49,863 nucleotides of DNA from Deltaproteobacteria bacterium. GTDB taxonomy: Bacteria > Desulfobacterota > DSM-4660 > Desulfatiglandales > HGW-15. The notes beneath the pieces were generated by a model. It worked only from the letters and a program-made list of their open reading frames with translations. It had not been told where the DNA came from and did no database searches. The position numbers and the translations under genes were made by a program. Each line of letters starts with the position of its first letter. Within the stretch, counting starts at the first letter, position 1. The stretch lies in the NCBI GenBank assembly GCA_019310525.1, contig JAFDEE010000006.1, forward strand, positions 1 through 49,863. The letters run 5' to 3'. Positions 6,055 through 22,200 of the stretch are shown here, one piece after another.

Positions 6055-7212
6055 CTAGTTCTGCCCCAATGCTTCCATGACCGCATTATGAATGACCGGC
6101 CGGAACTCCCTTATCTTCTCATTCTTACGGGAAGGGTGGATGCGGTTCGTGAGAAAAACGACGATGACATCCTTTTCAAGGTCCATCCATACGGATGTCC
6201 CGGTAAATCCCAGGTGCCCGACGCTCTTCTTGGAAAAAAGGCCCCCTGCGCTCGAATGCTCTGTTGAGGGCGTATCCCACCCCAGGGCCCAGGTATTCCC
6301 CTTTACCGTCTCCTGTCTCTCGAAAAAGAGTCTGACCGTCTCCGGCTCGAAGAAATCCTTCCGAACACCCAGATAATGCCCGCGCAGCATATCGAGTAAA
6401 ACGTAGACTTCCTCCGCGGTTCCGAACAACCCCGCGTGCCCGGAATACCCCCCTAAGGCGTAAGCGTTCTCATCGTGCACTTCCCCGCGAAGGATCTTCC
6501 TGCGCCAGGGGCACTCCTCCGTTGGAGCTATATCCTCCAATCCGACCCCCTCAGGCGCCTGCGGGAATCCGCCGAGGAACGTCCTCCGCAATCCCAAGGG
6601 ACCGTAGAAATGCCTTTCCAAAAAAGTGGGGAGGGCCTCTCCGGCAGCCTCCTCGACGACCCATTCGAGAAGCATGAAGCCCGGGTCGCTGTAAACGGCC
6701 CTGGTCCCTGGGGGATATTCCAGGGGCAGCCCTAGTATTTGCTCCCTTAACAGTCTTTTCCTGACATCGGGAAGGAAATGTACCAGGTGAAGGTAGAAGG
6801 GTCTCCACGCCGGTAGACCAGAGCAATGGCTGAGGAGTTGGCGCGGAGTAATAGATCCCTTTTCTCCGAGACCGCCAAAGGACAGGATTCCACCGAGGGG
6901 CCGATCCAGGTCGAGTTGTCTCCTGTCTACCAGGCTCATCATGGCCAGGGCCGTGGCAAGGGGCTTGGTAAGAGAAGCCAGGTCAAAGATCGTGTCCCTT
7001 TTCATGGGAAGTTTCCGGGGCCGGGTGGATTGATACCCGGCGGCCTCGAAAAACACTATTTTCCCTTTCCAGGCCGCCAGGAGCACGGCTCCCGGATAGA
7101 TACCCGCACCCGCACCTTCCGAAATGAGCTTTTTCAGCCTCACGCTCTCAGGATTTTCAAGAACCCTCACCTTCCACCCCCATTGTGCAGGACGATCCAG
7201 GCCAACTCCCAT
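6055..7212 (-). CDS. Serine hydrolase, class C beta-lactamase-like
   Basis: A 385-residue member of the beta-lactamase/esterase fold family. Catalytic motifs are in order: SLTK at 80-83 (nucleophile Ser 80), Y-S-D at 174-176 and H-L-G at 333-335 in the place of the KTG box. The block VHDENAYALGGYSGHAGLF is typical of the esterase or peptidase-like members rather than true lactamases. No signal peptide is visible, so it may be cytoplasmic. The substrate cannot be deduced. Its ATG follows the stop codon of the upstream PIN gene with no gap (TAA then ATG), suggesting translational coupling. An internal GTG at residue 16 is an alternative start. Confidence 0.85.
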   Translation of the reverse strand: MGVGLDRPAQWGWKVRVLENPESVRLKKLISEGAGAGIYPGAVLLAAWKGKIVFFEAAGYQSTRPRKLPMKRDTIFDLASLTKPLATALAMMSLVDRRQLDLDRPLGGILSFGGLGEKGSITPRQLLSHCSGLPAWRPFYLHLVHFLPDVRKRLLREQILGLPLEYPPGTRAVYSDPGFMLLEWVVEEAAGEALPTFLERHFYGPLGLRRTFLGGFPQAPEGVGLEDIAPTEECPWRRKILRGEVHDENAYALGGYSGHAGLFGTAEEVYVLLDMLRGHYLGVRKDFFEPETVRLFFERQETVKGNTWALGWDTPSTEHSSAGGLFSKKSVGHLGFTGTSVWMDLEKDVIVVFLTNRIHPSRKNEKIREFRPVIHNAVMEALGQN

Positions 7213-7599
7213 TTACACGGCAAGGACGGATTCCTCATATTGGGCTACGACAGCATCTGCGGTCACAAGGAGCAGGCCTTCTGTGCGGGCCTGAGCAAGA
7301 AGCATGCGATCAAAAGGGTCTTTGTGAAGTGGCGGCAACGACTCAACCCGTAAGGCATGTTCGGCGGTTACAGGCAGCTCGGTGTACCCGTGGGCAACAA
7401 GCCCTTTTCTGAAACGGTAGGCATCAACCTTGAAATCCTTCCGGCCAAGGCCCAATTTTATGATGATTTCCCAGATGCTTACTGCGCTGAAAAACAGTGT
7501 GTTTTCAGGTGAGGTCAAAATTGTACGCACTGATTCGGTAAGCTTTTCGGGCACTCCTGCTGCCAACAGGAGGATGTGCGTGTCAAGCAGCAGTTTCAC
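7213..7599 (-). CDS. PIN-domain toxin (VapC-like ribonuclease)
   Basis: A 128-residue PIN domain, a Mg-dependent RNase fold. The acidic residues expected at the metal site are visible: Asp 6 (LLLDTH), Glu 44 (SIWEI), Asp 97 (KDPFDRML) and Asp 115 (LVTAD). This is the subtype with LDTHxLLW-like N-termini, usually paired with a Phd/YefM antitoxin, and the antitoxin gene overlaps its start by 4 bp. The target RNA is not deducible. The serine hydrolase gene begins immediately after its stop. Confidence 0.9.
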   Translation of the reverse strand: MKLLLDTHILLLAAGVPEKLTESVRTILTSPENTLFFSAVSIWEIIIKLGLGRKDFKVDAYRFRKGLVAHGYTELPVTAEHALRVESLPPLHKDPFDRMLLAQARTEGLLLVTADAVVAQYEESVLAV

Positions 7600-7847
7600 G
7601 ACTCTTTTCCCCCCTCAAAAAACACCCTGATCTCTGATCCTCCCATGGTGTCGAAATCATCAGGGACTGAAATACTACCTGACATAAATCCAAGTTTCCC
7701 ATTCCCCTGCTTTTCTTCGTCGGCCAGAGGCACGACCTTGACCAGCGGTTTTCCCGCCTTGGCAATAACAAATGCCTTTCCTCGTGCAGCCTCATCGACG
7801 AGCCGGGACAGATGAGTTTTCGCCTCGTGAATATTGATAGTCTCCAT
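7596..7847 (-). CDS. Phd/YefM-type antitoxin
   Basis: An 83-residue protein with the N-terminal DNA-binding Phd fold (METINIHEAKTHLSRLVDEAARGKAFVIAKAGKPLVKVVPL) and a polar C-terminal tail that would wrap the toxin. It overlaps the PIN toxin gene by 4 bp, the usual antitoxin-first arrangement. ATG 7847 begins the fold; a TTG nine bases upstream sits closer to a GAGGGGG and is an alternative. Such antitoxins usually repress their own promoter, and a perfect 13-bp palindrome lies 37 bp upstream. Confidence 0.9.
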   Translation of the reverse strand: METINIHEAKTHLSRLVDEAARGKAFVIAKAGKPLVKVVPLADEEKQGNGKLGFMSGSISVPDDFDTMGGSEIRVFFEGGKES

Positions 7848-7883
7848 ATATAACAAATACCCCCTCAGCTGAATTTAGTCCAA

Positions 7884-7896
7884 TAAACTTAGTTTA
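7884..7896 (-). promoter_or_regulatory. Palindrome upstream of the toxin-antitoxin operon
   Basis: TAAACTTAGTTTA is a perfect palindrome around a central T. A TTGACA on the minus strand lies a short distance further upstream (around 7912-7917), so the palindrome is near the expected -10 region. A Phd-type antitoxin binding there would repress its own operon. The palindrome is seen; binding is inferred. Confidence 0.5.
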
Positions 7897-8087
7897 ACCA
7901 AAAACCATCACTTCCTGTCAACCTTAAAATCGCGATGAGGAGGTTAAACCCGTACTGCAGTTGAGGTATACAATAAATATTTCACTACACCTAAAACTCA
8001 TAAGAGCGGCCTTGACAATGGAGTCCACAGCATACTAACTAATCCCAGTTTCTTATTCCAATCCTGGCAACAAAAGTGAGGGAGACC

Positions 8088-8717
8088 ATGCCGACACATA
8101 CATTGATCGCCGGTCACGGCCGATTCAAAGAGCATTTCAGCAAAAACCGGGACTTCTTTCTGGCCCTTGCCCAGAAAGGACAATCTCCCAAGGTTTTATG
8201 GGTCGGGTGTTCCGATTCCCGGGTGGTTCCGGAACAGATCATGGGGGCGGATCCCGGAGAATTGTTCATCATCAGGAACATCGCCAATATCGTTCCTCCT
8301 GTGGGCAAGGGGGCTGATTCCGTTGGAGCGGCCATCGAGTATGCCGTTCTTCACCTCCAGGTGCCCCACATCGTGATCTGCGGGCATACGGAGTGCGGAG
8401 GGATCAAGGCCCTCGGAGAGGCCCTCGACATGGAGCACGAGCCCCATATTACACGCTGGCTTGAAAACGCCCGCCCCGCCCGGGAACGGGTGGAGGCAAG
8501 TGCCGGTTCCGAAATCGATCCCTACCTGGAAACCATCAAGGCCAACGTGCTGCTTCAAATGGAACACCTCATGACTTACCCCTGCGTCCGGGAAGCGGTG
8601 GAGGCCGGCCGCCTGACGATCCACGGGTGGCTCTATGATCTTCATAATGGAGATCTCTTCAGCTATAATGACAGCGAAAAAGGATGGACTCCTCTTTCCC
8701 TTCCCGGGCAAGAATGA
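8088..8717 (+). CDS. Beta-class carbonic anhydrase
   Basis: A 209-residue cytoplasmic enzyme that interconverts CO2 and bicarbonate. The zinc ligands and partner are clear: Cys 41 and Asp 43 in CSDSRV, and His 100 and Cys 103 in GHTECGG. Further family segments are GELFIIRNIAN, SVGAAIEYAV and a C-terminal IHGWLYDLHNG. ATG 8088 with GAGGGAG just upstream is preferred over an in-frame GTG at 8076. No cyanase or bicarbonate transporter gene is adjacent, so the context does not narrow its role beyond CO2/bicarbonate supply, for example to carboxylases or to carbamoyl phosphate synthesis. Confidence 0.95.
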   Translation: MPTHTLIAGHGRFKEHFSKNRDFFLALAQKGQSPKVLWVGCSDSRVVPEQIMGADPGELFIIRNIANIVPPVGKGADSVGAAIEYAVLHLQVPHIVICGHTECGGIKALGEALDMEHEPHITRWLENARPARERVEASAGSEIDPYLETIKANVLLQMEHLMTYPCVREAVEAGRLTIHGWLYDLHNGDLFSYNDSEKGWTPLSLPGQE

Positions 8718-8935
8718 GGCGGGGAACCCCCGCCCCGGGGGTCTTCAGAGATTCATTCCTCTCCGGTGTGGGTTGACCTCTCCGTTCTTTCCCGCCGGGT
8801 CCGGCACACCTTCAATCTGAATCCCTTCTTCCCTTCCCCTAAAAGGATTTGAACGGGCCCCCCGATCGGGGCCCATGTAAATTCTCCTCGGTAGGCCGCA
8901 AGACAGACCCCCACCACGAAATTTCTGCGGGGGTC
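8718..8935 (+). terminator. Three GC-rich hairpins after the carbonic anhydrase gene
   Basis: GGCGGGG (8718-8724) pairs with CCCCGCC (8728-8734). GGGCCCC (8855-8861) pairs with GGGGCCC (8868-8874). GACCCCC (8906-8912) pairs with GGGGGTC (8929-8935). None has a strong T tract, so they may terminate poorly or protect the transcript end. They separate the carbonic anhydrase gene from the TetR operon. Confidence 0.45.
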
Positions 8936-9016
8936 GCTTAAATCCTGATCTTAGGGAAATCGGACAAGAGCTCCACCGAGAGCCCCTATTGAGCCGGTTT
9001 CGGGGGAAAATTATCC

Positions 9017-9059
9017 TTGACAATTTCGGACGGCTTAACTATAAAACGAACGTTCGTTT
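9017..9059 (+). promoter_or_regulatory. Sigma-70 promoter with TetR-type operator
   Basis: TTGACA (9017-9022), a 17-base spacer and TATAAA (9040-9045) make a near-perfect promoter. The 16-bp perfect palindrome AAACGAACGTTCGTTT (9044-9059) overlaps the -10 box and the expected transcription start near 9052. It lies 29 bp before the start codon of a TetR regulator, so self-repression of the whole downstream operon is likely. Confidence 0.8.
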
Positions 9060-9087
9060 GACTATCAGCCGATTTCGGTATCATGAC

Positions 9088-9675
9088 ATGTCCAAGCCCA
9101 AGAACCCGGAAAAGCGCAAGGAGATTCGAAGGGTCGTAGCCCGCCTTTTCGCCGTGAAGGGTTACCATGGCACTTCCATGCGGGAGATCGGACGGACTCT
9201 CGGCATGAACCAGTCCTCCCTCTACCATTACTTTTCGAGCAAGGAAGAGATCCTCTTTCTCATCATGAACGAGGCCATGGATGAGGCCCTCGCAGTCCTG
9301 AGGGATATTTGTTCTTCTAACCTCTCCCCGGAAGAGAAGCTCGACCGTGTCCTGGCTTTTTATACCCGCTATTATGCGGGGGACCAGGACAGCCTTTCCC
9401 TGCTGGTAAACGAGATGAATTCCCTGGGCAGGGAATACCGGCAGGTTCTGGTGGAAAAGGAGAGGGAGTATGTAAAGCTCATCCGGTCCATTTTGGAAGA
9501 ATTGATGCGGACCCGGAAGATGAAGGACATCGATCCCACTATCGCCACTTTCGCCTTTTTCGGCATGGTCCATTATACGATCAAGTGGTACCGAAAGGAT
9601 GGCCCCATCGGGCCTGACCGCTTGGCCGACCACTTTGTAAAGATCTTTACGAAAGGAATCCTGTACCCGCCATGA
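9088..9675 (+). CDS. TetR/AcrR family transcriptional regulator
   Basis: A 195-residue one-component repressor. The N-terminal helix-turn-helix is clear (RVVARLFAVKGYHGTSMREIGRTLGMNQSSLYHYFSSKEEIL). The C-terminal part (about residues 60-195) is helical and would bind a small ligand, as in fatty-acid or acyl-CoA responsive members such as FadR/PsrA-like regulators. ATG 9088 (MSKPKNPEK) is chosen because the promoter and operator lie at 9017-9059, which would be inside the coding region of the longer frame starting at 8989. Its stop overlaps the next start (ATGA), so regulator and electron-transfer genes form one operon. An acyl-CoA effector is inferred from context. Confidence 0.9.
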   Translation: MSKPKNPEKRKEIRRVVARLFAVKGYHGTSMREIGRTLGMNQSSLYHYFSSKEEILFLIMNEAMDEALAVLRDICSSNLSPEEKLDRVLAFYTRYYAGDQDSLSLLVNEMNSLGREYRQVLVEKEREYVKLIRSILEELMRTRKMKDIDPTIATFAFFGMVHYTIKWYRKDGPIGPDRLADHFVKIFTKGILYPP

Positions 9676-11654
9676 CACCTTTCCGGCCTACCTACTGGAA
9701 CATCCACCCCGTCTGGGCCTTCTACCTCCTGGCAGGAGTCGCCTTGGCGATCTTCGGGGCGGGTCTTGCCTCTCGAATCAGCCTTTGGCTAAGGGGGACC
9801 AGGTCCCGGGTTCCCTCTTTCCCGAAGGAAGCTCTTAAAAAGCTTCTTCTCGACGCTTTGCTGGGACGGAGGATATTCAGGGGAGACGCCGCTGCGGGGA
9901 CTATGCACCTCCTCATCTCCTGGGGTTTCCTCGGCCTCTTCCTGGGGACACTCCTCCTCTCGGCGGACTACTGGTTCGAAGGCTTTCTCCAGGGCCGTGT
10001 ATACCTTTGCTATGCCGTCTTCATGGAAATTTTCGGCCTGATGTTCACGGCAGGTATTCTCTGGGCCCTGGCACGCCGCTACCTTCAGCGGGTTCCCCGC
10101 CTCGAACGGCGCCTTGAAGACCTGATCATCCCCCTCTGGCTCATCGCGGTCTCCCTGTCGGGGTTCCTGCTCGAATCAAGCCGCCTCGCGGCCCAGGACC
10201 CTGCCTGGGCGACTTGGTCCTTTTTCGGGTATATCTTCGCCCCGCTCTGGCATGACGGCCAAAGGGCGCTTCACGCCTATCTATTCCTGTGGTGGGGGCA
10301 TGCTGTACTGAGCTTGGGACTGATCGCCTATATCCCCTATTCCAAGTTGTTTCACCTCCTTTCGGCCCCCGCAGCTATATACCTGAGCAACAGGCCGGTT
10401 CATATCCTTCCGGCCGAAGTGCTACAGGAGGGACATCGGCCTTACTCGCTGGACAGCCGGATATTCCTGGATGCCTGCACCCGGTGCGGTCGCTGCACCG
10501 AGGTCTGCCCCGCCGCCTTGGCCGGCGAGCCGTTTTCACCCAGGGATTTCATCCTCTGGGCCCGGCAAAATATCTCGGCCGATCGTCCCCTGCCAATAGG
10601 AGAAGCAGGCCTTAAAACCGACTTCACCGAGGAAAGAATCTGGCACTGCACCACTTGCAGGGCCTGTTTGGAGGTCTGCCCGATCTATGTACCCACGCCC
10701 GATACCCTCCTTGAGGCCAGGAGCTGGTCCGTGGAGAATGGAGGCGGCATGCCGCCGCTCCTCGGCCGCTCCCTCAAGACCCTCTACAAGTACAACAACC
10801 CCTGGGAGGCGACCAAGAAGAAGAGAGCCGCCTGGGCCGGAGATAGGAATATACCTGATATCAGCAAGGGTGAAGAAGTCCCTTTGTGCTACTTCGTGGG
10901 GTGCACGACCGCAATGGATTCCCGGGCCCGTTCCCTTGCTTGCTCCCTCGCGGACGTCCTGGCCCACGCGGACATCTCCTTCGGCACCCTGGGCAAGAAG
11001 GAACCCTGCTGCGGGGACATCGCCCGCCGGGCCGGTGAAGCGGGCCTTTTCGAGATGAAGATGGAGGATTGCATGGAGCTGTTCATGCGATGGGGGGTCA
11101 CAGACATCGTTACTTCCTCCCCCCACTGCTTTCATACCATGAAAAACGACTATGCCGCCTTCAAGGTCCGCCCCGGGGACGGGGAGACGGCCTTCCGCGT
11201 CCGGCATTACTCCCAGCTACTCGATGAAATCCTCCAAAAGGGGGCGCTAGCCTTCACCCGATCCCTCGATTTGCGGGTCACCTTTCACGATCCCTGTTAC
11301 CTGGGGCGATACAACCGTGTGTTCGATGCTCCCAGGAAGGTGATCCAGGCGATTCCAGGCGTCAAACTCCTGGAAATGCCCCACACCATGGAAAACAGTC
11401 TCTGCTGCGGGGGCGGAGGCGGGCGAATGTGGCAGGAAGAACTGGACGGGAATCCCAAGATGTCCGAAATCCGGATCCAGGAAGCCGCAGAGACCGGGGC
11501 CGAGGTCCTGGTGACGGCATGCCCCCTTTGCCTGATCATGCTGGAAGACGCCCGCAAAACCGCGGGACTCGAGGACCGGCTCAGGGTGATGGACCTCAAT
11601 GAACTGGTGGTACTGGCCCTCGGGCTTAAAAATGCAACGGAAGGGGTCAAGTGA
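9672..11654 (+). CDS. Membrane-bound FeS oxidoreductase (ETF:quinone-type, HdrD-like)
   Basis: A 660-residue fusion. Residues 1-230 have about five or six membrane helices resembling the NarI/HdrE cytochrome b subunit, with His 79, 194, 201 and 210 as possible haem ligands. Two [4Fe-4S] motifs follow (CTRCGRCTEVCP at 269-280, CTTCRACLEVCP at 326-337). Two CCG domains follow with their cysteine sets (CC at 446-447 and CCG at 578-580), as in HdrD and GlpC-like proteins. Such DUF224-type proteins encoded with etfBA are proposed to pass electrons from ETF to menaquinone in syntrophic and sulfate-reducing bacteria. etfB, etfA and an acyl-CoA dehydrogenase follow, which supports that role. The ATGA overlap with tetR indicates coupling. 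Confidence 0.9.
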   Translation: MTPFRPTYWNIHPVWAFYLLAGVALAIFGAGLASRISLWLRGTRSRVPSFPKEALKKLLLDALLGRRIFRGDAAAGTMHLLISWGFLGLFLGTLLLSADYWFEGFLQGRVYLCYAVFMEIFGLMFTAGILWALARRYLQRVPRLERRLEDLIIPLWLIAVSLSGFLLESSRLAAQDPAWATWSFFGYIFAPLWHDGQRALHAYLFLWWGHAVLSLGLIAYIPYSKLFHLLSAPAAIYLSNRPVHILPAEVLQEGHRPYSLDSRIFLDACTRCGRCTEVCPAALAGEPFSPRDFILWARQNISADRPLPIGEAGLKTDFTEERIWHCTTCRACLEVCPIYVPTPDTLLEARSWSVENGGGMPPLLGRSLKTLYKYNNPWEATKKKRAAWAGDRNIPDISKGEEVPLCYFVGCTTAMDSRARSLACSLADVLAHADISFGTLGKKEPCCGDIARRAGEAGLFEMKMEDCMELFMRWGVTDIVTSSPHCFHTMKNDYAAFKVRPGDGETAFRVRHYSQLLDEILQKGALAFTRSLDLRVTFHDPCYLGRYNRVFDAPRKVIQAIPGVKLLEMPHTMENSLCCGGGGGRMWQEELDGNPKMSEIRIQEAAETGAEVLVTACPLCLIMLEDARKTAGLEDRLRVMDLNELVVLALGLKNATEGVK

Positions 11655-11745
11655 AAATCATTTTGCCTTACCTCAGCTGCGCCCGCTACGTTTTTCTGCA
11701 CACTGTTAAGCATAAAAAATTACCAGAGACCGGGAGGAAAGAAGC

Positions 11746-12537
11746 ATGGAGATCATCGTTTGCATCAAGCAGGTCCCCGAGGTGATCGACGCCGAACTGG
11801 AAATCGACCGGGACGGGACGGACATCGACAGGGAGGATCTGGAATTCGACATCAACGAATGGGACAACTACGCGGTGGAGGAGGCCGTTCGGATCAAGGA
11901 GCGCCACGGCGGAAAAGTCACGGTGGTGACCCTGGGTGACGAAGAGAGCGAAGACGTCCTCCGCCAGGCCCTTGCAATGGGGGCGGATGAGGCCATACGG
12001 ATCGACTGGGACGGATTCGAAGGTTCTGACGCAGCCGGGATCGCCAGGGGACTATACCGTGCCCTCAAGGGTGTGCCCTTCGACCTCATCCTTACCGGGG
12101 TCCAGGCGTCTGATGACGGCTGGGGCCAGGTCGGTCTCACCTTGGCGGAATATTTCGGCCTCCCATACGCCTCCCTGGTGGTGGGGATAGAGGTGGAGGA
12201 GGGAACCGTGATCGCCACCCGTGAATTGGAGGCGGGAATCCAGGAGAAGGTTCTTCTTCCTCTTCCCGCCCTCATGACCATTCAGAGCGGGATCAATATT
12301 CCCCGCTACGTCTCCATCACCGGGATCCGCAGCGTGCGGAATGTGGAGATCCGGGAAGTTGATGCGGGCGATCTGGGTCTCGGGGAAGAAGAGATCGGCG
12401 CCGGAGCCTCGGCCCTTGAATCCATCGCCCTCTCCCTGCCGGAGGCAGGTGATGGTGCGGAGATCCTAAAGGGGAGTCTTGAAGAGGTCTGCGAAAAGGT
12501 CGCTTGGATCATTCGTGAGAAAGGAGGGACGGCATAA
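11746..12537 (+). CDS. etfB: Electron transfer flavoprotein, beta subunit
   Basis: A 263-residue ETF small subunit. Family signatures include IIVCIKQVPEV at the N-terminus, DEYAVEEA-like DNYAVEEAVRIKE, KVTVVTLGDEESEDVLRQALAMGADEAIRI, and LTGVQASDDGWGQVG. It pairs with the alpha subunit to hold FAD and AMP (or a second FAD in bifurcating forms). The gene ends at TAA directly before the etfA ATG, so translation is coupled. It lies 91 bp after the membrane oxidoreductase gene with GGGAGGAAAG as its ribosome binding site. Because the acceptor gene beside it is a membrane oxidoreductase rather than a bifurcating enzyme, a simple shuttle role is more likely. Confidence 0.95.
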   Translation: MEIIVCIKQVPEVIDAELEIDRDGTDIDREDLEFDINEWDNYAVEEAVRIKERHGGKVTVVTLGDEESEDVLRQALAMGADEAIRIDWDGFEGSDAAGIARGLYRALKGVPFDLILTGVQASDDGWGQVGLTLAEYFGLPYASLVVGIEVEEGTVIATRELEAGIQEKVLLPLPALMTIQSGINIPRYVSITGIRSVRNVEIREVDAGDLGLGEEEIGAGASALESIALSLPEAGDGAEILKGSLEEVCEKVAWIIREKGGTA

Positions 12538-13506
12538 ATGGAAGAGATCCTGGTGCTCGCCGAACACAGGCAGGGGCAAGTCAGGGATATCACTTTCGAG
12601 ATCCTGACGCTTGCAAATCGACTAGGCATTGAGAGGGAGGCAACGGTCTCGGTCCTCTTATCCTGCGGAGGAGAGGCATACCCGGGTGAAAAGGAACTGG
12701 CAGCCTCCTGCGACGACCTCCTGGTCATAGGTGATGAAGGGCTTGCCCATTACAACGCCGACCACTACCTCGCTGTCCTTGAAAGGGTCTTGGCGGAAAG
12801 ACGCCCCAGGTTCATCCTGATGGGACACACATCCATGGGGATGGACCTAGCCCCTTCCCTGGCCGCCCGGCTTTCCATCCCCCTCGTCACCGACTGCCTG
12901 GAGGTGGAGGCGACCTCCGGAGGGCTTCAGATCCTCCGCCAGATGTATGGGGGCAAGATCCAGGCCCGTATCTCCTTGAAACCCTCCGAACAATATCTCC
13001 TGACCATCCGGCCGGGGTGCTTTGAGTGTCGGCGCGGTCAAGGAAAATCGGCCCATCTCAAGGTGCTCGACTCCCATGACTGGACCGGCCTGAGGGGCCG
13101 CCGATTTCTGGAATACCTTGAAACCGGGCCGGCGGATGTGGATATTGCGGAAGCAGACATTCTGGTCTCTGTAGGACGCGGCATCGGGAAACCCGAAAAC
13201 ATTCCCCTGGCACAGGAATTCGCGGACGCCATCGGCGCCACCCTCTCCTGCTCCCGCCCCGTGGCCGACGAGGGATGGCTCCCTAAAAGCCGCCAGGTCG
13301 GGACATCGGGAAAGACCGTGAGGCCCAAAGTTTACATCGCCTTAGGGATCAGTGGGGCCTACCAGCATCAGGCGGGCATGAAAAATTCCGGCACCATCAT
13401 CGCCGTGAACAAGGACCCCCAGGCTCCCATCTTCGGCTTCGCCCATTACGGCATCATCGGGGATGTCATGAAGGTACTGCCCATCCTTAAGGAGAAATTC
13501 GCCTGA
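12538..13506 (+). CDS. etfA: Electron transfer flavoprotein, alpha subunit
   Basis: A 322-residue ETF large subunit. The C-terminal FAD domain is unmistakable: VGRGIGKPENIPLAQEFADAI, SRPVADEGWLPKSRQVGTSGKTV, YIALGISGAYQHQAGM and IIAVNKDPQAPIF. The N-terminal half is the alpha/beta domain that contacts EtfB. No extra ferredoxin domain is present. It starts at the base after the etfB stop. With etfB it would accept electrons from the acyl-CoA dehydrogenase encoded 57 bp downstream and pass them to the upstream membrane oxidoreductase. Confidence 0.95.
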   Translation: MEEILVLAEHRQGQVRDITFEILTLANRLGIEREATVSVLLSCGGEAYPGEKELAASCDDLLVIGDEGLAHYNADHYLAVLERVLAERRPRFILMGHTSMGMDLAPSLAARLSIPLVTDCLEVEATSGGLQILRQMYGGKIQARISLKPSEQYLLTIRPGCFECRRGQGKSAHLKVLDSHDWTGLRGRRFLEYLETGPADVDIAEADILVSVGRGIGKPENIPLAQEFADAIGATLSCSRPVADEGWLPKSRQVGTSGKTVRPKVYIALGISGAYQHQAGMKNSGTIIAVNKDPQAPIFGFAHYGIIGDVMKVLPILKEKFA

Positions 13507-13563
13507 GGGGCGGCCCGACCCATCACCCCCCGGAAATCCGCCAGCAAAGCAAGGAGAAGAAGG

Positions 13564-14712
13564 ATGGACTTTTCACTCAGCAAGGAACAACGGGATATCG
13601 TCAGGGCTGCGAAAAAATTCGCCCGGGCAGAGTTCCCGGACAGGGCCCTGGAGTTTGACAGGGAAGAGACCTTTGACCTGGATCTCTGGCGAAAGGCCTG
13701 CGAGCTGGGTTTCGTCGGGGTGTTCATCGGAGAGGCATACGGCGGAGCCGGGTTGGGATTTTTTGAGCATTCCCTCATCTCCGAAGAGTTCTGGGCCGTG
13801 GATCCCGGCATCGGGCAGGCTATTCTCTCCACCACCTTCGGCTCAGAACTGCTCCTTCTCTATGGAACGGAAGAGCAAAAACAGTCCATCCTTCCCCGCC
13901 TGGTATCGGGCAAGGCCGTCATGGGAACGGCCATCACCGAGCCCAACGCGGGCTCGGACGTTGCAGGCGCCATGACCTCGGCCGCCAAGGATGGGCAGGA
14001 ATGGGTCATCAACGGGAGCAAGATGTTCACAACAAACGGCACCATTGCCGATTTCATTCTCCTCTTTTGCAGGACGGATCCCGACAACCCCTCCCGCCAC
14101 GGCCGCCACAGCTTCATCCTGGTGCCCACAGACACCGCAGGCTTCAAGGCCAAGAAGATCCGAGGGAAAATGGGTATTCGGGCATCGGACACGGCCGAGC
14201 TCTCCCTGACGGATGTCCGCGTCCCCCTGGATAATCTCGTGGGGAAAGAGGGCGAAGGATTCCGGCAGCTCATGGCCTTTTTCAACCGCACCCGTCCCCA
14301 CGTGAGCGCCCAGGCCGTGGGCCTGGCCCGGGCCGCCCTGGAAGAGGCCCTTCGCCACACAAAGGAACGGCGTCAATTCGGACGCCCCCTTGCCTCTTTC
14401 CAGGTGACCCAGTTCAAGCTCGCGGAAATGGCGACCTGGATCCGTGCGGCGCGAAACCTTTACTACGAGGCCGCATGGAGCGTGGATCAGGGCAAGGTGG
14501 ATCATGCCCTGATTGCCATGGCCAAGTGGTTTTCAGCGGAGACCGCCGTGCGTTGCGTTGACGAAGCCCTCCAACTCCACGGGGGATATGGATATATCGA
14601 CGAGTACAGGATCAACCGTCTTTACCGGGCCGCCAAAATACTGGAGATCTATGAAGGCACCAAGGAGATGGAAAAGACCATCATTTCACGCTCCCTTATC
14701 GGATCGATATAA
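13564..14712 (+). CDS. Acyl-CoA dehydrogenase
   Basis: A 382-residue flavoenzyme of beta-oxidation that oxidises an acyl-CoA to the trans-2-enoyl-CoA. The length and order match short- and medium-chain members: helical N-terminus (DFSLSKEQRDIVRAAKKFA), FAD segment AITEPNAGSDVAG, MGIRASDTAELSLTDVRVP, ERRQFGRPLASFQ, DEALQLHGGYGYIDEY and YEGTKEM, in which the Glu of YEG is at the usual catalytic-base position. Chain-length or aromatic substrate preference cannot be read. It closes the operon headed by tetR, and a hairpin follows 5 bases after its stop. Confidence 0.95.
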   Translation: MDFSLSKEQRDIVRAAKKFARAEFPDRALEFDREETFDLDLWRKACELGFVGVFIGEAYGGAGLGFFEHSLISEEFWAVDPGIGQAILSTTFGSELLLLYGTEEQKQSILPRLVSGKAVMGTAITEPNAGSDVAGAMTSAAKDGQEWVINGSKMFTTNGTIADFILLFCRTDPDNPSRHGRHSFILVPTDTAGFKAKKIRGKMGIRASDTAELSLTDVRVPLDNLVGKEGEGFRQLMAFFNRTRPHVSAQAVGLARAALEEALRHTKERRQFGRPLASFQVTQFKLAEMATWIRAARNLYYEAAWSVDQGKVDHALIAMAKWFSAETAVRCVDEALQLHGGYGYIDEYRINRLYRAAKILEIYEGTKEMEKTIISRSLIGSI

Positions 14713-14713
14713 A

Positions 14714-14745
14714 CCCCTATCGGCTGAAGCCGATAGCTTTAGGGG
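14714..14745 (+). terminator. Hairpin after the acyl-CoA dehydrogenase gene, part of a repeat
   Basis: CTATCGGC (14717-14724) pairs with GCCGATAG (14729-14736) around TGAA, with an outer CCCCT/AGGGG pairing. It has no clean T tract. The same block, continuing into CAAGTGAAAATCATTT, occurs inverted near 42975-43045, and its last part also at 11648, so it is a mobile or REP-like hairpin that may serve as transcript end. Confidence 0.5.
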
Positions 14746-14883
14746 CCAAGTGAAAATCATTTTCACTCACTCGCCCCCTGGACCCTTTGAATCCTTGAAC
14801 CCTATTTTTGAAAACGATCGAACTGATGTGTTAGTCTGAAAGCGTAAGTTTCTCTCATTCCCCGAATGGGACAAAAAATGAGT

Positions 14884-14912
14884 TTGACACCTCTTCATGT
14901 ATTTTTTATAAT
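14884..14912 (+). promoter_or_regulatory. Perfect consensus sigma-70 promoter
   Basis: TTGACA (14884-14889), exactly 17 bases, then TATAAT (14907-14912), all twelve bases matching consensus. Transcription would start near 14919, leaving a U-rich leader of about 93 bases before the ATG at 15012, which has GGGAGGAAA upstream. This implies strong, housekeeping-type expression of the fused gene. Confidence 0.85.
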
Positions 14913-15011
14913 TTTTGAAATTTTATGGACGATTTTTTCAGTTTTTTGTTTTATTTTTGAGGAAAACACCATAAAAATCACCTTATCATCGTCTTACCCA
15001 GGGAGGAAACC

Positions 15012-17678
15012 ATGACAGGGGATGCCGAACTCACAAAAACGCCGCTCAACACCTGGCACAAGGCCAACGGCGGTCAAATGATCGACTTCGGGGGATGGGA
15101 GATGCCGGTCCAGTATAAAACCGGCATCATTGAAGAACACCTGGCCGTCCGCAAGGCAGGCGGCCTTTTCGACGTGAGCCACATGGGCCGTTTCCGGATC
15201 AAGGGCAAGGACAGGATCGCCTTTCTCCAGCACGTCCTGAGCAACAATGCCGAGGCCCTCGAGCCGTGGCAGGCCCAGTACACCCTGGTGCCCAATCAGG
15301 AGGGGGGTGCCATCGACGATGCCTACCTTTACCGGTTCGGGGAAGAAGACTACCTGCTCGTGGTCAATGCGGCCAATCGCGGGAAGGTCTGGGACCACTT
15401 TCAAGAGCAGGCCCGGGATTTTGGTGATGTCCGCCTCGAGGACCATACCCATGCCCTCGGCATGATCGCCTTCCAGGGTCCCGGGACCAAGGCCGTCCTT
15501 GAAAAAGCCATGGAGGGAGGCCGACTGCCGGAACCCATGCGGAACAGGCTCTCGGAAGGGATCATCGCCGGGACTCCCGTACCCATAGCACGGACGGGTT
15601 ACACGGGAGAACCCCTTTGCTTTGAGCTCTTTCCACCAGCCGACAAGACCGAGGCCGTGTGGTCGGCCCTTTATGAAGCGGGCAGGGACATGGGGATCCT
15701 GCCCATCGGGCTCGGGGCCCGGGACACCTTGAGACTGGAGGCCGGCATGCCCCTTTACGGCCACGAACTGGGGCTTGATCCGGAAGGCAAAGAAATCCCT
15801 ATTTTCGCCATTACCTTGGCCCCCATGGCAGTGAGTTTCAACCCCCGGAAGGGGTCCTTCGTGGGCCGGGAGGCCCTTGAGCGCCAATTCCAGGCCCTTG
15901 AAAAGATCCGGAACGGCCTTTTGAGCAGTCCTCCAGAGGCCCTTCCCCGCCGCATTCATCCCGTTGCGATCCAGGACAAGGGAATCGCCCGCCAGGGGGA
16001 TGAGGTTCTCCTGAGGGGGGAGAAAGTCGGAGTGGTGACCAGCGGTACGATGATTCCCTACTGGATCTTTGAAGGTGAGGGGGCCACCATGACCCTCACG
16101 GGGAAATCGGCCCGGAGGGCCATCGCCTTGGCCTTGGTGGATTCCACCCTCCAGCCCGATACGGACCTCGAGATCTCAGTGCGCAGGCGAAGGCTAAAGG
16201 GAAAAATCGTTCGCTGGCACGGCCGCTCCGAAGCCCCTCCATACTTCCGTTCGATCCCTGTGGATTTCGAAAAACCCAAACCAGGCGAACTCCTCGGGCA
16301 GGGCATGGAGAAGGCTGAAATCCTTCTTAAGAAAGGCATTGAAAATCACATCTGGAGGCAGACCCGGTGCATCAACCTGATCCCGTCTGAGCAGACCCCC
16401 TCTCCCCTGGTTCGGCTCCTGTCCGTGTCCGACCCAGTGGGCCGGTACGCCGAGCACAGGGAACTACTCGCCGCCTTCGAACAGGAGGTATTCTATTACC
16501 AGGGCACTGATTTCATCGCCTGGGTCGAGGAACGCCTGAAGGCGGAAATGGCCGACTACCTGGGTTGTCCCCTGGTCGAAGTGCGGCCGGTGAGTGGGCA
16601 GATGGCCAACATGACGGTCTTCAGCGCCTTCGTGGATTTCAAGAACCGCACAAACCGAAAGCGGGAGGCTGAACGAATCCGCCTGGCCATGAACAACCAC
16701 ATCGGCAAGGGCGGGCACCTGAGTTCACAGCCCATGGGGGCCTTAAGGGACTATATCGCCCGGGACCCCCTCACTGATCAATACGCCGTGATCAACTTCC
16801 CCGTCATGGAAGACAATCCTTACCGGATCGATGTCGAGGCCACCGGGAAGCTCCTTGAACAGGTGAATCCCGAGGTGATCATCTTCGGCAAAAGCATGGT
16901 GCTTCATCCCGAGCCGATTGCGGAGATCCGCAAACTCGTGGAAGGCCACAGGCCCCGCCCCCTGATCATGTACGATATGGCCCATGTCCTGGGGTTAGTG
17001 GGGCCCCATTTCCAGGAGCCTTTCAGGGAAGGGGCTGACATCGTCACCGGCTCCACCCACAAGACCTTCTTCGGGACCCAGAGGGGAGTGGTCGGAGGGG
17101 ATTTCGAAGAAAATACCCCCGGCTTCGAGCTATGGGAAGCCATCGAACGGCGCGCTTTTCCAGGCATGGTGAGCAACCACCACCTCGGAAGTCTCCTTGG
17201 GCTCCTTCTCGCAACCATTGAGATGAACACCTTCAAGGACGAGTATCAGGCCCAGGTGATCCGAAACGCCAAGGCCTTCGCAAGGGGACTGAAGGAGGCG
17301 GGGCTTCAGGTGGAGGGGGATCCGGAGTGCGGCTATACCGAGACTCACCAGGTCATCCTCAACGTAGGTTACGGGAAAGGGCCAGGGGTTGCCCGCATCC
17401 TGGAAATGAACAACATCATCGTGAACTATCAGGCCACCCCCTTTGACGAGTCCTTTACCGCCAGCTCCGCGCTCCGCATGGGGGTCTCCGAGATGACCCG
17501 CTTCGGCATGAAGGAAAAAGATTTCGAGGCCCTGGCCCACCTCCTGGCCGAAGCCGTTCGGGGTAAGAACGTGAAGGAGGAGATTGTCAAGCTTCGTAGC
17601 CGTTTCCTGGAATTGGGCTATTGTCTCGATGACGGTCTACTGGCCCCCTTGAAGAAACAGCTCATAGATACCTTTTAG
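15012..17678 (+). CDS. GcvT-SHMT fusion: aminomethyltransferase + serine hydroxymethyltransferase
   Basis: An 888-residue protein joining two one-carbon enzymes. Residues 1-415 form a complete glycine-cleavage T protein: MIDFGGWEMPVQY, DVSHMGR, the folate-site Asp in GGAIDDAYL, ARTGYTGEPLCFE, GLGARDTLRLEAGMPLYGHEL and VGVVTSGT. Residues 425-888 form a divergent PLP-dependent SHMT: NLIPSE (455-460), GRYAEH, SGQMANM, DMAHVLGL (655-662) and the Schiff-base Lys 684 in TGSTHKTFFG. T protein makes methylene-tetrahydrofolate and ammonia from the aminomethylated H protein; SHMT uses methylene-tetrahydrofolate and glycine to make serine. Fusion would couple glycine cleavage or its reverse to serine. 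No gcvH or gcvP lies nearby. The gene stands alone with its own promoter and a terminator-like hairpin. Confidence 0.9.
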   Translation: MTGDAELTKTPLNTWHKANGGQMIDFGGWEMPVQYKTGIIEEHLAVRKAGGLFDVSHMGRFRIKGKDRIAFLQHVLSNNAEALEPWQAQYTLVPNQEGGAIDDAYLYRFGEEDYLLVVNAANRGKVWDHFQEQARDFGDVRLEDHTHALGMIAFQGPGTKAVLEKAMEGGRLPEPMRNRLSEGIIAGTPVPIARTGYTGEPLCFELFPPADKTEAVWSALYEAGRDMGILPIGLGARDTLRLEAGMPLYGHELGLDPEGKEIPIFAITLAPMAVSFNPRKGSFVGREALERQFQALEKIRNGLLSSPPEALPRRIHPVAIQDKGIARQGDEVLLRGEKVGVVTSGTMIPYWIFEGEGATMTLTGKSARRAIALALVDSTLQPDTDLEISVRRRRLKGKIVRWHGRSEAPPYFRSIPVDFEKPKPGELLGQGMEKAEILLKKGIENHIWRQTRCINLIPSEQTPSPLVRLLSVSDPVGRYAEHRELLAAFEQEVFYYQGTDFIAWVEERLKAEMADYLGCPLVEVRPVSGQMANMTVFSAFVDFKNRTNRKREAERIRLAMNNHIGKGGHLSSQPMGALRDYIARDPLTDQYAVINFPVMEDNPYRIDVEATGKLLEQVNPEVIIFGKSMVLHPEPIAEIRKLVEGHRPRPLIMYDMAHVLGLVGPHFQEPFREGADIVTGSTHKTFFGTQRGVVGGDFEENTPGFELWEAIERRAFPGMVSNHHLGSLLGLLLATIEMNTFKDEYQAQVIRNAKAFARGLKEAGLQVEGDPECGYTETHQVILNVGYGKGPGVARILEMNNIIVNYQATPFDESFTASSALRMGVSEMTRFGMKEKDFEALAHLLAEAVRGKNVKEEIVKLRSRFLELGYCLDDGLLAPLKKQLIDTF

Positions 17679-17684
17679 TCCTTC

Positions 17685-17722
17685 GGCGCCGTTTCCAGGG
17701 ACACCGTTCCGGAAACGGCGCC
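17685..17722 (+). terminator. Hairpin between convergent genes
   Basis: GGCGCCGTTTCC (17685-17696) pairs perfectly with GGAAACGGCGCC (17711-17722). It lies between the stop codons of the plus-strand fusion gene and the minus-strand purF, and could end transcripts from both sides. No strong T run follows on either side. Confidence 0.65.
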
Positions 17723-17741
17723 TCCATGTTTCCAGACCCTT

Positions 17742-19226
17742 TCATTTACATTCCAGCCAGGTCTTGGAAAAGGTCTCGTCTATGGACACGGGGTAGTTTC
17801 CGTCGAAACAGGCCAGACAAAGGTCATCCCTGGGAATGCGGGTGGCCCGGACGAGATTTTCAAGGCTCAGGTAACCAAGGCTGTCCAATCCAATGTAGTC
17901 CCGGATCTCTTCCACCGATTTCTGTGCCGCGATCAATTCCCCTTTGCTGGAAAAATCGATCCCGTAATGGCAGGGAAAACGGTGGGGAGGGCAGCTTACA
18001 AGCATGTGGACTTCCCGAGCTCCGATGCCTTTCAGTGTCCGCATACGGGTCCTGGCCGTCGTGCCCCGGATGATGGAATCTTCGATGATGATCACCCGGC
18101 GGCCCCTGAGGAGTTCCTTTACCGGGTTCAATTTGACCTTCACCCCAAAGTCCCGCATGCTCTGGGAGGGCTGGATAAAGGTCCTTCCCACATAGTGGTT
18201 ACGGATCATCCCCATTTCCAGCGGAATTCCTGAGGCCTGAGCGTATCCGATAGCGGCATAATTGCCGGAATCGGGGAACGGCATCACCAGGTCCGCGTCA
18301 ATCGGGTATTCCTTGGCCAGGAGTTCCCCCTGCTTTTTCCGAAAGAGGTAGACGTTTTCGCCGTACACGTTGCTGTCAGGCCTGGCAAAATAGATGAGTT
18401 CGAAGATGCACTGGGCCCTGCGGGCCTGGTTCCGGGGTCGGATGCTTCGCAATCCTTCCTCGTTGATTACGATGACTTCGCCGGGCTCCACATCCCGGAC
18501 ATAGACGGCCTCTACGAGATCAAGGGCGCAGGTCTCGGAGGTGACGACAAAACCCTTGTCGTTGATCTTTCCAAGGCACAAGGGGCGGAATCCATTCGGG
18601 TCCCTGACCGCCACCAGGGCGTCCTCGCTCATGAGGATCAGGGAATAGGCTCCTTTTACCTGCTCCATGGTCCCGACCATGGCCTGCTCCAGTCCCTTCT
18701 TCATTCCCCGGGCCACCAGGTGCAGAACGACCTCGCTGTCCATGCTCGTCTGGAAGATGGAGCCCTGGCTCTCCATTTTCGTCCTGAGGCTTCGGGCGTT
18801 CACCAGGTTGCCGTTATGTGCTATGGCCAGGGTCTTCCCCGCATGTTGGACCCTGAAGGGCTGTGCGTTGACGAGAAGTGAAGAACCCGTCGTGGAATAC
18901 CTCACATGGCCCAAGGCCATGTGGCCCTTCAGTCGATCCAGGATCTCCTGGGTGAAGATCTCAGGTACCAGGCCCATGGCCTTGTACTCGGCCACGTGAC
19001 TTCCGTCCGATGCCACGATTCCGGCACTCTCCTGGCCTCTGTGCTGTAAGGCATAGAGCCCGAAATAGGTCAACCGCGCGGCCTCCGGGTGTCCGTAAAC
19101 CGCGAAAATACCGCATTCCTCCCTGGGCCGTTCCGGCAAGGGGACCCGTGCATTGTTTTCGGGCACATGCATGGTTCGACTCATCTTCTGGAAAAGTGAA
19201 CTGATACGGGGATCCCGGAACTCCAC
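17742..19226 (-). CDS. purF: Amidophosphoribosyltransferase PurF
   Basis: A 494-residue enzyme for the first step of purine synthesis: PRPP plus glutamine to phosphoribosylamine. The class II glutaminase nucleophile is Cys 38 in EECGIFAVYGH, after a longer-than-usual propeptide that is probably cleaved. Typical segments are ALQHRGQESAGI and the PRPP loop VIIIEDSIIRGTT. Cysteines in CIFELIYFARPDS, HRFPCHYGI and DLCLACFDG match the [4Fe-4S] ligands of the Bacillus-type enzyme. The assigned start at 19226 is GTG; ATGs at 19184 and 19172 would also retain the catalytic Cys. It is last in the minus-strand block after carB, 20 bp away, so co-transcribed. Confidence 0.95.
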   Translation of the reverse strand: MEFRDPRISSLFQKMSRTMHVPENNARVPLPERPREECGIFAVYGHPEAARLTYFGLYALQHRGQESAGIVASDGSHVAEYKAMGLVPEIFTQEILDRLKGHMALGHVRYSTTGSSLLVNAQPFRVQHAGKTLAIAHNGNLVNARSLRTKMESQGSIFQTSMDSEVVLHLVARGMKKGLEQAMVGTMEQVKGAYSLILMSEDALVAVRDPNGFRPLCLGKINDKGFVVTSETCALDLVEAVYVRDVEPGEVIVINEEGLRSIRPRNQARRAQCIFELIYFARPDSNVYGENVYLFRKKQGELLAKEYPIDADLVMPFPDSGNYAAIGYAQASGIPLEMGMIRNHYVGRTFIQPSQSMRDFGVKVKLNPVKELLRGRRVIIIEDSIIRGTTARTRMRTLKGIGAREVHMLVSCPPHRFPCHYGIDFSSKGELIAAQKSVEEIRDYIGLDSLGYLSLENLVRATRIPRDDLCLACFDGNYPVSIDETFSKTWLECK

Positions 19227-19246
19227 TCCAATCCCTGGGACACGCC

Positions 19247-22200
19247 TTACTCCCTGAAATGCTGAATCAGGCTGTCCATTTCGTGGTATTCCTGCAAGGT
19301 CTTCACCTTCAGGTCCCCTTCCAGCATGGACTTGATGCCCAGGGCGGTGGCCCTGGCACCCGCCAGGGTTGTGGTGTAGGGGATTTCCAGGATCAGGGCC
19401 GTGCGGCGGATCTCGTAGGATTCGGAGACGGCCCGCTTACTGCTCGTGGTATTGATCACGAGATCGATCTCGCCGTTTTTCATGAGGTCTAGGATATGGG
19501 GGCGTCCTTCCCTGACCTTTTTTACCGCCTCGTTGGGGATGCCCTGGCGGGAAAGAAACTCGGACGTCCCTCGGGTGGCCACAATTCTAAATCCCAGCTT
19601 GTGGAATATCTTGGCCGTATTCAGTACAGCAGTCTTGTCCTCGTCCCGGACGCTGATGAACACCGTCCCCGACGTCGGCAGTCTTTGGCCCGCAGCCAAC
19701 TGACTCTTTGCGTAGGCCAGCCCAAAGGATTGATCGATCCCCATGACCTCCCCGGTGGATTTCATTTCGGGTCCTAAAAGGGTATCCACTCCCGGGAATC
19801 GGTCAAAGGGGAAGACCGATTCTTTCACACAAGTATGGGTCATGGTCACTTCCCTGCGCAACCCCAGATCCTTAAGCTTAAGGCCCATCATCACCTTGGT
19901 CGCAAGCTTGGCCAGGGGGATTCCGGTGGCCTTGCTCACAAAGGGAACGGTCCTCGAAGCCCTCGGGTTGACCTCCAGGATATAGATCTCGTTGTCTTTC
20001 ACCGCGTATTGGATATTCATCAATCCCACGACACGGAGTTCCCGGGCGAGGGCCTTGGTCTGGGACCTGATCTGTTCCAGGATATTAGGCTTGAGGGAGA
20101 TGGGAGGCAAGACACAGGCACTGTCGCCGCTGTGTATTCCCGCCTCCTCGATATGCTCCATGATTCCGCCGATCACGGTTTCATCGCCGTCGGAGATGGC
20201 GTCCACGTCGATCTCCACGGCACGCTCCAGGAACCGGTCGATGAGCACGGGCTTTCCCGGTGAAACCTCCACCGCGCTCAAGATGTACCGTTCCATGTCA
20301 GCCTGATCGTAAATGATCTCCATGGCCCTCCCACCCAGGACAAAGGAAGGCCTCACAACCACGGGGTACCCGACCTCCGCCGTAACCCTCAGGGCCTCCT
20401 CAGGGCTGTATGCGATGTCGTTTCTAGGTTGACGCAGGTTGAGTTTTTTAAGCAGTTTCTGGAACCGCTCCCGGTCCTCGGCCCGGTCGATGCTGTCCGG
20501 ACTGGTCCCGAGGATACGCACCCCGGCCTCGGCCAACGGAACGGCGATGTTGAGGGGAGTCTGCCCTCCGAACTGGACGATCACCCCCTCGGGATTTTCC
20601 TGCTCGATTATGTTAAGCACATCTTCCCGGGTCAGGGGCTCGAAGTAGAGTTTGTCGGAGGTGTCGTAGTCTGTGCTCACGGTCTCCGGGTTGCTGTTGA
20701 CCATGATGCTCTCGATTCCGAGTTCCCTGAGGGCGAAGGATGCCTGGACGCAACAATAGTCGAACTCGATCCCCTGGCCGATCCGGTTGGGACCGCCACC
20801 TAGGATGACAACCTTTCTTTTCCGCGTGGAGCGGATCTCGTTTTCCTCCTCATAGGTGGAGTAATAGTAGGGCGTGTACGCCTCGAATTCCGCCGCGCAG
20901 GTATCCACAAGCTTGTAGACAGGGGTGACCCCCTTTCCGGTTCGCCACTCCCGGATTTCCTGTTCCGTCCTCTCGAAAAGGGTCGCCAACTGAAGGTCCG
21001 AGAAACCGAGTTCCTTGACTTCCTTCAGCAACTCCGGATCCCAGTCTCTTGGGGAAACGCCCCGGCGGGCTTGATCCCGGAGCTTTTTTTCCATCTCGTG
21101 GATCTCCCGGATGTGGAAGAGGAACCATGGATCGATGTGGGTCAGGTCCCGGATTCTTTCGATGGGCATCCCTTTTTCAAACGCTCGCAAAATGTAAAAA
21201 ATCCGCTCGGAGTTGGGTTCAATGAGTTTCTTTTCGATTTCCTGGATATCCGGGTCCGGCTCCCTTCCCGGGGGAGAATCGGCTCCCAGCCCGATCCGGC
21301 CGATCTCCAGGGACCGGACGGCCTTTTGGAGGGCCTCCTTGAAGGTCCTGCCGATGGCCATGGTCTCCCCCACCGAACGCATGGAGGTGGTCAGGCTGTC
21401 CCTTGCTCCCGGGAATTTCTCGAAGGTCCACCTGGGGATCTTGACCACGCAATAGTCGATAGTGGGCTCGAAGGAAGCCAGTGTCTCCCGGGTGATATCG
21501 TTCGCGATCTCATCGAGGGTATAGCCCACGGCGAGCTTGGACGCGATCTTGGCGATGGGGAACCCCGTCGCCTTGGATGCCAGGGCCGAACTGCGGGAGA
21601 CCCTCGGATTCATCTCGATGACGACCATCTCGCCCGTCCGGGGATGGACCGCGAACTGGATGTTGGATCCCCCGGTCTCCACCCCGATCTCCCTGATGAT
21701 GGCGATGGCCGCATCCCTCATCTCCTGGTATTCCCTGTCCGTCAGGGTCTGGGCCGGAGCCACGGTGATGCTGTCCCCGGTGTGTATGCCCATGGGATCG
21801 AAGTTTTCAATGGAGCAGATGATCACCACGTTGTCCATGAAATCCCTCATGACCTCCAGCTCATACTCCTTCCATCCAATGAGGGATTCCTCGATGATGA
21901 TCTCTGAGATCATACTCGCCTCAAGACCCGCCTTGGCGAGCTCTTCCATTTCCTCCCGGTTGTAAGCCACACCGCTCCCCGTCCCGCCCAGGGTGAAGCT
22001 GGCCCGGATGATCAGAGGATAGCCGATCCTTTCCGCCACTTCCCGTGCCTGGTCCATGTTACGGGCGATCCCGTTTCGAGAAATCCGAAGGCCGATCCGC
22101 TCCATGGCATCCCGGAACTGCTCCCTGTCCTCAGCCTTCAGGATGATGGGAATAGAAGCCCCGATGACTTCCACTCCCATCTCGTCGAGAAGCCCTGTCT

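Follow-up and report, generated by a model that had tools for sequence, protein, structure and literature searches.

The window, that is the whole stretch of 49,863 nucleotides that was analysed, contains a gene joining the T protein of the glycine cleavage system (GcvT) to a serine hydroxymethyltransferase (SHMT), both of which are textbook enzymes (Table 1). The first-pass annotation had described two one-carbon enzymes in one 888-residue chain, and this is borne out by the Pfam domains GCV_T (residues 12-254, 260 bits against a cut-off of 25.6), GCV_T_C (residues 313-347, 31.8 bits against 25.9) and SHMT (PF00464, residues 441-844, 116 bits against 27), all of which lie in the same uninterrupted open reading frame. 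The T half passes the NCBIfam GcvT models NF001567 (317 against 300) and TIGR00528 (252 against 236). The SHMT half stays under the NCBI GlyA cut-off (NF000586, 244 against 335) and far under the cut-off for fluorothreonine transaldolase (TIGR04506, 137 against 650). No dedicated model for the GcvT-SHMT fusion was found in the NCBIfam search. Upstream, an acyl-CoA dehydrogenase gene (13564-14712) ends 300 bp before the fusion gene starts, and purF (17742-19226, minus strand) converges on the fusion gene from the far side. The promoter-like site is a consensus match only and the single match, against 1.2 expected at a looser threshold. No Rfam match to a glycine riboswitch was detected within positions 7000-20000 of the window.

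Table 1. Coordinates of the fusion gene, its parts and its upstream signals in the window
Feature	Position	Strand	Basis
GcvT-SHMT fusion gene	15012..17678	+	888 aa, ATG start, uninterrupted ORF, profile matches, in-frame relatives
T half (aminomethyltransferase), residues 1-402	15012..16217	+	above cut-offs of both NCBIfam GcvT models
Linker region, residues 411-447, 37 residues	16242..16352	+	length compared across 72 fusions
SHMT half, residues 441-888, archaeal-type PLP fold-type I	16332..17675	+	profile, structure and sequence matches, tree
Asp102, equivalent of folate-site Asp97 of E. coli GcvT	15315..15317	+	invariant in 72 fusions
Lys684, PLP lysine	17061..17063	+	aligned with E. coli SHMT Lys229 (K229), invariant in 72 fusions
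Altered loop after Glu481, HRELLAAFEQEVF replacing GYPGKR	16455..16493	+	7 residues longer than in other SHMTs
Insertion DFKNRTNRKREAERI, about residues 542-556	16635..16679	+	mostly missing from aligned stand-alone SHMTs
Promoter-like TTGACA-17-TATAAT, upstream of fusion gene	14884..14912	+	sigma-70-like, 12/12 consensus match
Likely ribosome-binding site GGGAGG	15001..15006	+	read directly in sequence

The key catalytic residues of both halves are retained. D102 and D103 match D97 and D98 of E. coli GcvT and are invariant in an alignment of 72 fusions, as are N119, Y197 and R237 of the T half, so that the folate-site Asp is kept as first proposed. The PLP lysine and the motifs NLIPSE (residues 455-460) and DMAH (residues 655-658), all named in the first-pass annotation, were likewise confirmed. 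D655, H658, E481, Y479, Y496, the substrate arginine R822 and the GGHL motif of the SHMT half are invariant across the same 72 fusions. The divergence ascribed to this half is also real. The usual EGYPGKRYYGG region reads E481-HRELLAAFEQEVF-YYQG, and SGQ stands in place of SGS, with Q530 found in 72/72 fusions. Two further folate/PLP-site positions differ from both E. coli and M. jannaschii (Lys346 to Tyr and Asn347 to Gln). The linker is 36-40 residues long in 67 of the 72 fusions and 37-39 in 64. A Desulfamplus fusion (L071:4492-7383) carries a linker of 116 residues made largely of TQNQ-type repeats.

Integrity, distribution and history of the fusion

The GcvT-SHMT fusion is genuine and occurs in many anaerobic bacteria. 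A missed stop or assembly join at the linker, or the absence of the fusion from close relatives, would have spoken against the first-pass annotation, and neither was found. Of 109 related loci, found in Desulfobacterota, Clostridia, Planctomycetota, Gammaproteobacteria and other groups, 102 read through both halves in a single frame. A search for relatives with the SHMT half, covering 118 genomes, recovered fusion-type SHMTs at 59-68% identity in 39 of them (including the genome of the window), most of the matches lying within open frames that span some 884-927 codons. Among the best 80 of 575 relatives in a GTDB scan using one genome per species, the listed loci belong to Thermodesulfobacteriota, Bacillota, Planctomycetota, Pseudomonadota and others, with the Bacillota represented by Lachnospiraceae, Oscillospiraceae, Sporomusa ovata and Clostridium thailandense. 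An even sample of 395 genomes from the phylum contains 39 that encode a fusion-type SHMT, which is unfused in one of them (G158), and a further 14 that encode a stand-alone archaeal-type SHMT only.

The genome of the window is an assembly of 158 contigs, which could favour an assembly or annotation artefact. Such an artefact or a missed stop is nevertheless ruled out with near certainty by the one-frame loci, which include one in a single-contig genome (G052, locus L021). The fusion also occurs in the named species Sporomusa ovata, Clostridium thailandense and Desulforhopalus singaporensis, in Oscillibacter and in an NZ_AP record of Vescimonas. The remaining seven loci comprise four cut by contig ends (L017, L028, L100 and L123) and three splits. 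The halves are separate adjacent genes in L080 and L101, both planctomycete. In L091, an in-frame stop falls at the T/SHMT linker (around position 1012) in one MAG, and represents either an error or a natural split. Two of the one-frame loci have a stop inside the SHMT half itself (L019 of G058, a TAA, and L119).

Phylogenetic trees indicate a single origin of the GcvT-SHMT fusion, followed by splits and losses. The careful tree unites the fusion SHMTs in a single clade (100/100). A long branch separates this clade from M. jannaschii SHMT and the bacterial stand-alone SHMTs of archaeal type, with which it groups apart from the distant GlyA at 100/100 support. An SHMT-like protein 33% identical (L038) formed a long branch in a first tree and was omitted from the careful tree. 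The split planctomycete genes fall within the fusion clade of the careful SHMT tree (98/99) and at the edge of the fusion clade in the T tree. Given their position inside the SHMT clade, they look like later splits. T-only proteins of two genomes (G053 and G085) nest in the fusion T clade of a quick tree and keep the linker motif RS(D/E)xPPYARP, and so appear to have lost the SHMT half. Lineages that split the fusion or lost the SHMT half suggest that being fused is not essential to function. Mean identity across fusions is 53% for the T half and 64% for the SHMT half. The distances in the two halves are correlated (Mantel r 0.88, against 0.20 for the best of 2000 shuffles), which suggests that the halves travel together, also across phyla. 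The unfused SHMT of G158 (L160:6859-8298) stands alone, has a shorter loop after the catalytic Glu and falls at the base of the tree without a firm position. It is a candidate for the pre-fusion form.

A second fusion joins the same enzymes in the opposite order. Chains of 1079 residues (L141 of G104, 7123-10359) and 1091 residues (L142 of G110, 7600-10872) share the order SHMT-x-GcvT, where x is a short degenerate GcvT-like piece preceding a full GcvT. Both genes adjoin gcvPA-gcvPB, and L141 also adjoins gcvH. The GcvT-like middle piece occurs in 6 of the 395 genomes of the phylum. In the trees, the SHMT of these chains sits on the side of the canonical forms and their T domain falls outside the fusion T clade, and the placements indicate an origin separate from that of GcvT-SHMT. 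Two separate joinings of this pairing, one in each order, point to a functional benefit.

Genomic context and role of the SHMT half

The first-pass annotation had raised the question of separate genes for the same functions. The genome of the window is 97% complete and the fusion is the only GcvT found in it. A gcvH-gcvPA-gcvPB-lipB-lipA cluster lacking gcvT lies on another contig (C98). Two canonical-type SHMTs and a formate-THF ligase are also encoded. Directly upstream of the cluster on C98, a second GcvPA/GcvPB-like pair is followed by an ATP-NAD-kinase-like ORF (L055, 630-4796), and a GDC-P paralogue likewise adjoins gcvPA in locus L145. The third SHMT of the genome (L002, contig C66, 1492-2757) reads ELNAATNLP where others read LIASEN, with the usual Ser-Glu changed, and is possibly a different aldol enzyme.

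Across genomes, the fusion is tied to glycine cleavage. gcvP was found in 36 of 39 fusion genomes compared to 23 of 79 others (Fisher p = 4e-11, ignoring kinship). The fusion adjoins gcvH, gcvPA, gcvPB or lpd in 36/79 loci, and in 18 of the 37 loci having at least 3.5 kb on both sides. In relatives, it often stands beside, or divergent from, gcvH-gcvPA-gcvPB-lpd-lipB. Among 23 loci searched besides the window, a glycine riboswitch was found in clostridial loci only, and lies directly upstream of the fusion in nine of these. As the clostridial operons continue in the order fusion-gcvH-gcvPA-gcvPB-lplA/lpd behind the riboswitch, the fusion takes the place of gcvT. The order in Vescimonas fastidiosa is fusion-gcvH-gcvPA-gcvPB-lpdA-5-formyl-THF cyclo-ligase, and the RefSeq record names the 881-residue fusion "GcvT" alone. 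Only one fusion genome (G036) has a second plain GcvT, of 432 residues, the other extra GcvT matches being flavoprotein-sized ORFs as judged by size only. The gammaproteobacterial fusions L081, L084 and L120 adjoin transketolase-like and MalY/PatB-like PLP genes rather than gcv genes, the neighbours being named from sequence appearance and not from profiles.

In eleven fusion genomes, no PF00464 match other than the fusion was found, which is the strongest genomic argument for a working SHMT half. Four of these genomes are at least 95% complete (G103 at 99%, G091 and G035 at 97% each, and G013 at 95%); they are MAGs, so that glyA may be missing from any single assembly. The contig of G013 stops short of the T half, and the SHMT half alone is seen there. 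As cells need SHMT activity, the SHMT half very probably works as an SHMT in the sole-copy genomes. Most fusion genomes, including that of the window, also carry one or two canonical SHMTs, and there the SHMT half would not be needed for SHMT activity as such. Beyond what was first described, the SHMT half is of the archaeal type, and the fusion is widespread, sits in glycine-cleavage operons and is the sole SHMT of some genomes.

Proposed function and relation to known systems

We consider it likely that the fusion is a bifunctional T-protein/SHMT coupling glycine cleavage and serine synthesis, in either direction, through methylene-THF. The T half would convert the aminomethyl group on lipoyl-H-protein and tetrahydrofolate into methylene-THF and ammonia, and the SHMT half would combine methylene-THF with glycine to give serine, or run in reverse. 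With the H, P and L proteins, the net reaction would interconvert 2 glycine with serine, CO2 and NH3. Together with formate-THF ligase and the folate enzymes, the system could run from formate and CO2 to glycine and serine. Joining the halves would have methylene-THF made and used at one place and in a fixed ratio.

The divergent sequence of the SHMT half, including the exchange of Asn347 for Gln, could alternatively reflect another aldol-type activity, such as a threonine aldolase or transaldolase or the formation of alpha-methylserine, leaving the T half alone to serve glycine cleavage. The sequence matches include the L-threonine transaldolase 7k34 and fluorothreonine transaldolase, and canonical SHMTs coexist in many genomes. 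The closest solved relative is nonetheless an SHMT (M. jannaschii), Glu481, Tyr496 and the GGHL folate loop are kept, and several near-complete MAGs have no other SHMT, making a different activity improbable.

If the fusion is a bifunctional T-protein/SHMT, the joining may act at the level of the reaction or of expression. In true channelling, methylene-THF or its polyglutamate would move from one active site to the other while staying on the protein. For two distant fusion members, AlphaFold models reached pTM values of 0.89 and 0.84, and because a two-domain chain with unfixed domains is expected to score much lower, a fixed domain packing is predicted. Such packing is consistent with channelling, as are the near-constant linker length, the altered loop beside the SHMT folate site with the extra insertion of the fusion family, and the convergent reverse-order fusion. 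However, SHMT works as a dimer or tetramer whereas the models are monomeric, and both the long Desulfamplus linker and the existence of split forms argue against it. Channelling is plausible, with the chances lying somewhat against it. A device for co-expression and a fixed ratio only, in which independent halves are fused to balance supply and use, comes closer to an even chance. The secondary splits show that the halves can work apart, as do T-only descendants retaining the linker motif (L155 and L152). Against a purely expression-related role, many phyla have retained the fused form, its transfer has been that of one unit, and a fixed packing is predicted. We tentatively suggest a channelling enzyme whose T-protein part passes methylene-THF directly to a dedicated archaeal-type SHMT, so that glycine cleavage or synthesis and serine formation become one committed step. 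Such an enzyme would operate in many anaerobes, gut Clostridia among them, and the joining would have evolved at least twice, in opposite orders.

Both the reductive glycine pathway and the fermentation of amino acids in the gut depend centrally on glycine, serine and formate metabolism. Scoring genomes by gene name can mislead here, since a protein labelled "GcvT", as it is in Vescimonas, conceals an SHMT, and the conversion of glycine to serine would seem to be missing from genomes that lack a separate glyA. A one-chain T-protein/SHMT would also be a ready part for the engineering of formate assimilation. Finally, folate channelling could be tested cleanly on this natural example, for which the split, lost and reverse-order relatives would serve as ready controls.

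The component enzymes are known, and it is their joined layout, widespread as it is, that seems to be new. The open-access literature searched yielded no description of the GcvT-SHMT layout, though such absence is weak evidence. Regarding the reductive glycine pathway in sulfate reducers, the main text of PMC12827605 contains no word beginning with "fus", and the text of PMC7547702 contains neither "fused" nor "fusion". The domain pair is probably listed in the architecture tables of UniProt and InterPro.

Compared with GcvT of B. subtilis (1yx2), T. maritima (1woo-1wos) and E. coli (3a8i), the whole T half aligns at a TM of about 0.9 and shares the folate Asp with its surrounding motif as well as the gcv operon position. 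The fusion adds the C-terminal SHMT and has a longer loop before the C-terminal barrel. The nearest relatives of the SHMT half by tree, sequence and fold are archaeal-type SHMTs, with 36% identity to that of M. jannaschii (4bhd, 4uqv) and 43-45% to bacterial stand-alone forms. The fusion differs from these in the loop after Glu481, longer by 7 residues and without GYPGKR, in an additional insertion of 12-15 residues and in having Tyr-Gln for Lys-Asn at the folate site. For M. jannaschii SHMT, the reported carrier is tetrahydromethanopterin. The carrier used by the SHMT half of the fusion is probably folate instead, as the T half and the folate enzymes point in this direction. Canonical GlyA has in common with the fusion the PLP lysine, the Asp-His pair and equivalents of Glu57, Tyr65 and Arg363, but the SHMT half is only about 26% identical to it, forms a separate clade and scores below the GlyA cut-off. 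The SHMT-x-GcvT chains combine the same two predicted activities next to gcv genes, but in the opposite order, with a canonical-type SHMT, a middle piece and a separate origin. Flavoprotein-GcvT fusions (dimethylglycine oxidase, sarcosine oxidase alpha and TMAO demethylase) similarly connect a GcvT fold to a catalytic partner, which lets THF take up a one-carbon unit. Their partner is an oxidase making methylene-THF, whereas the partner in the GcvT-SHMT fusion would be a PLP-dependent SHMT using it.
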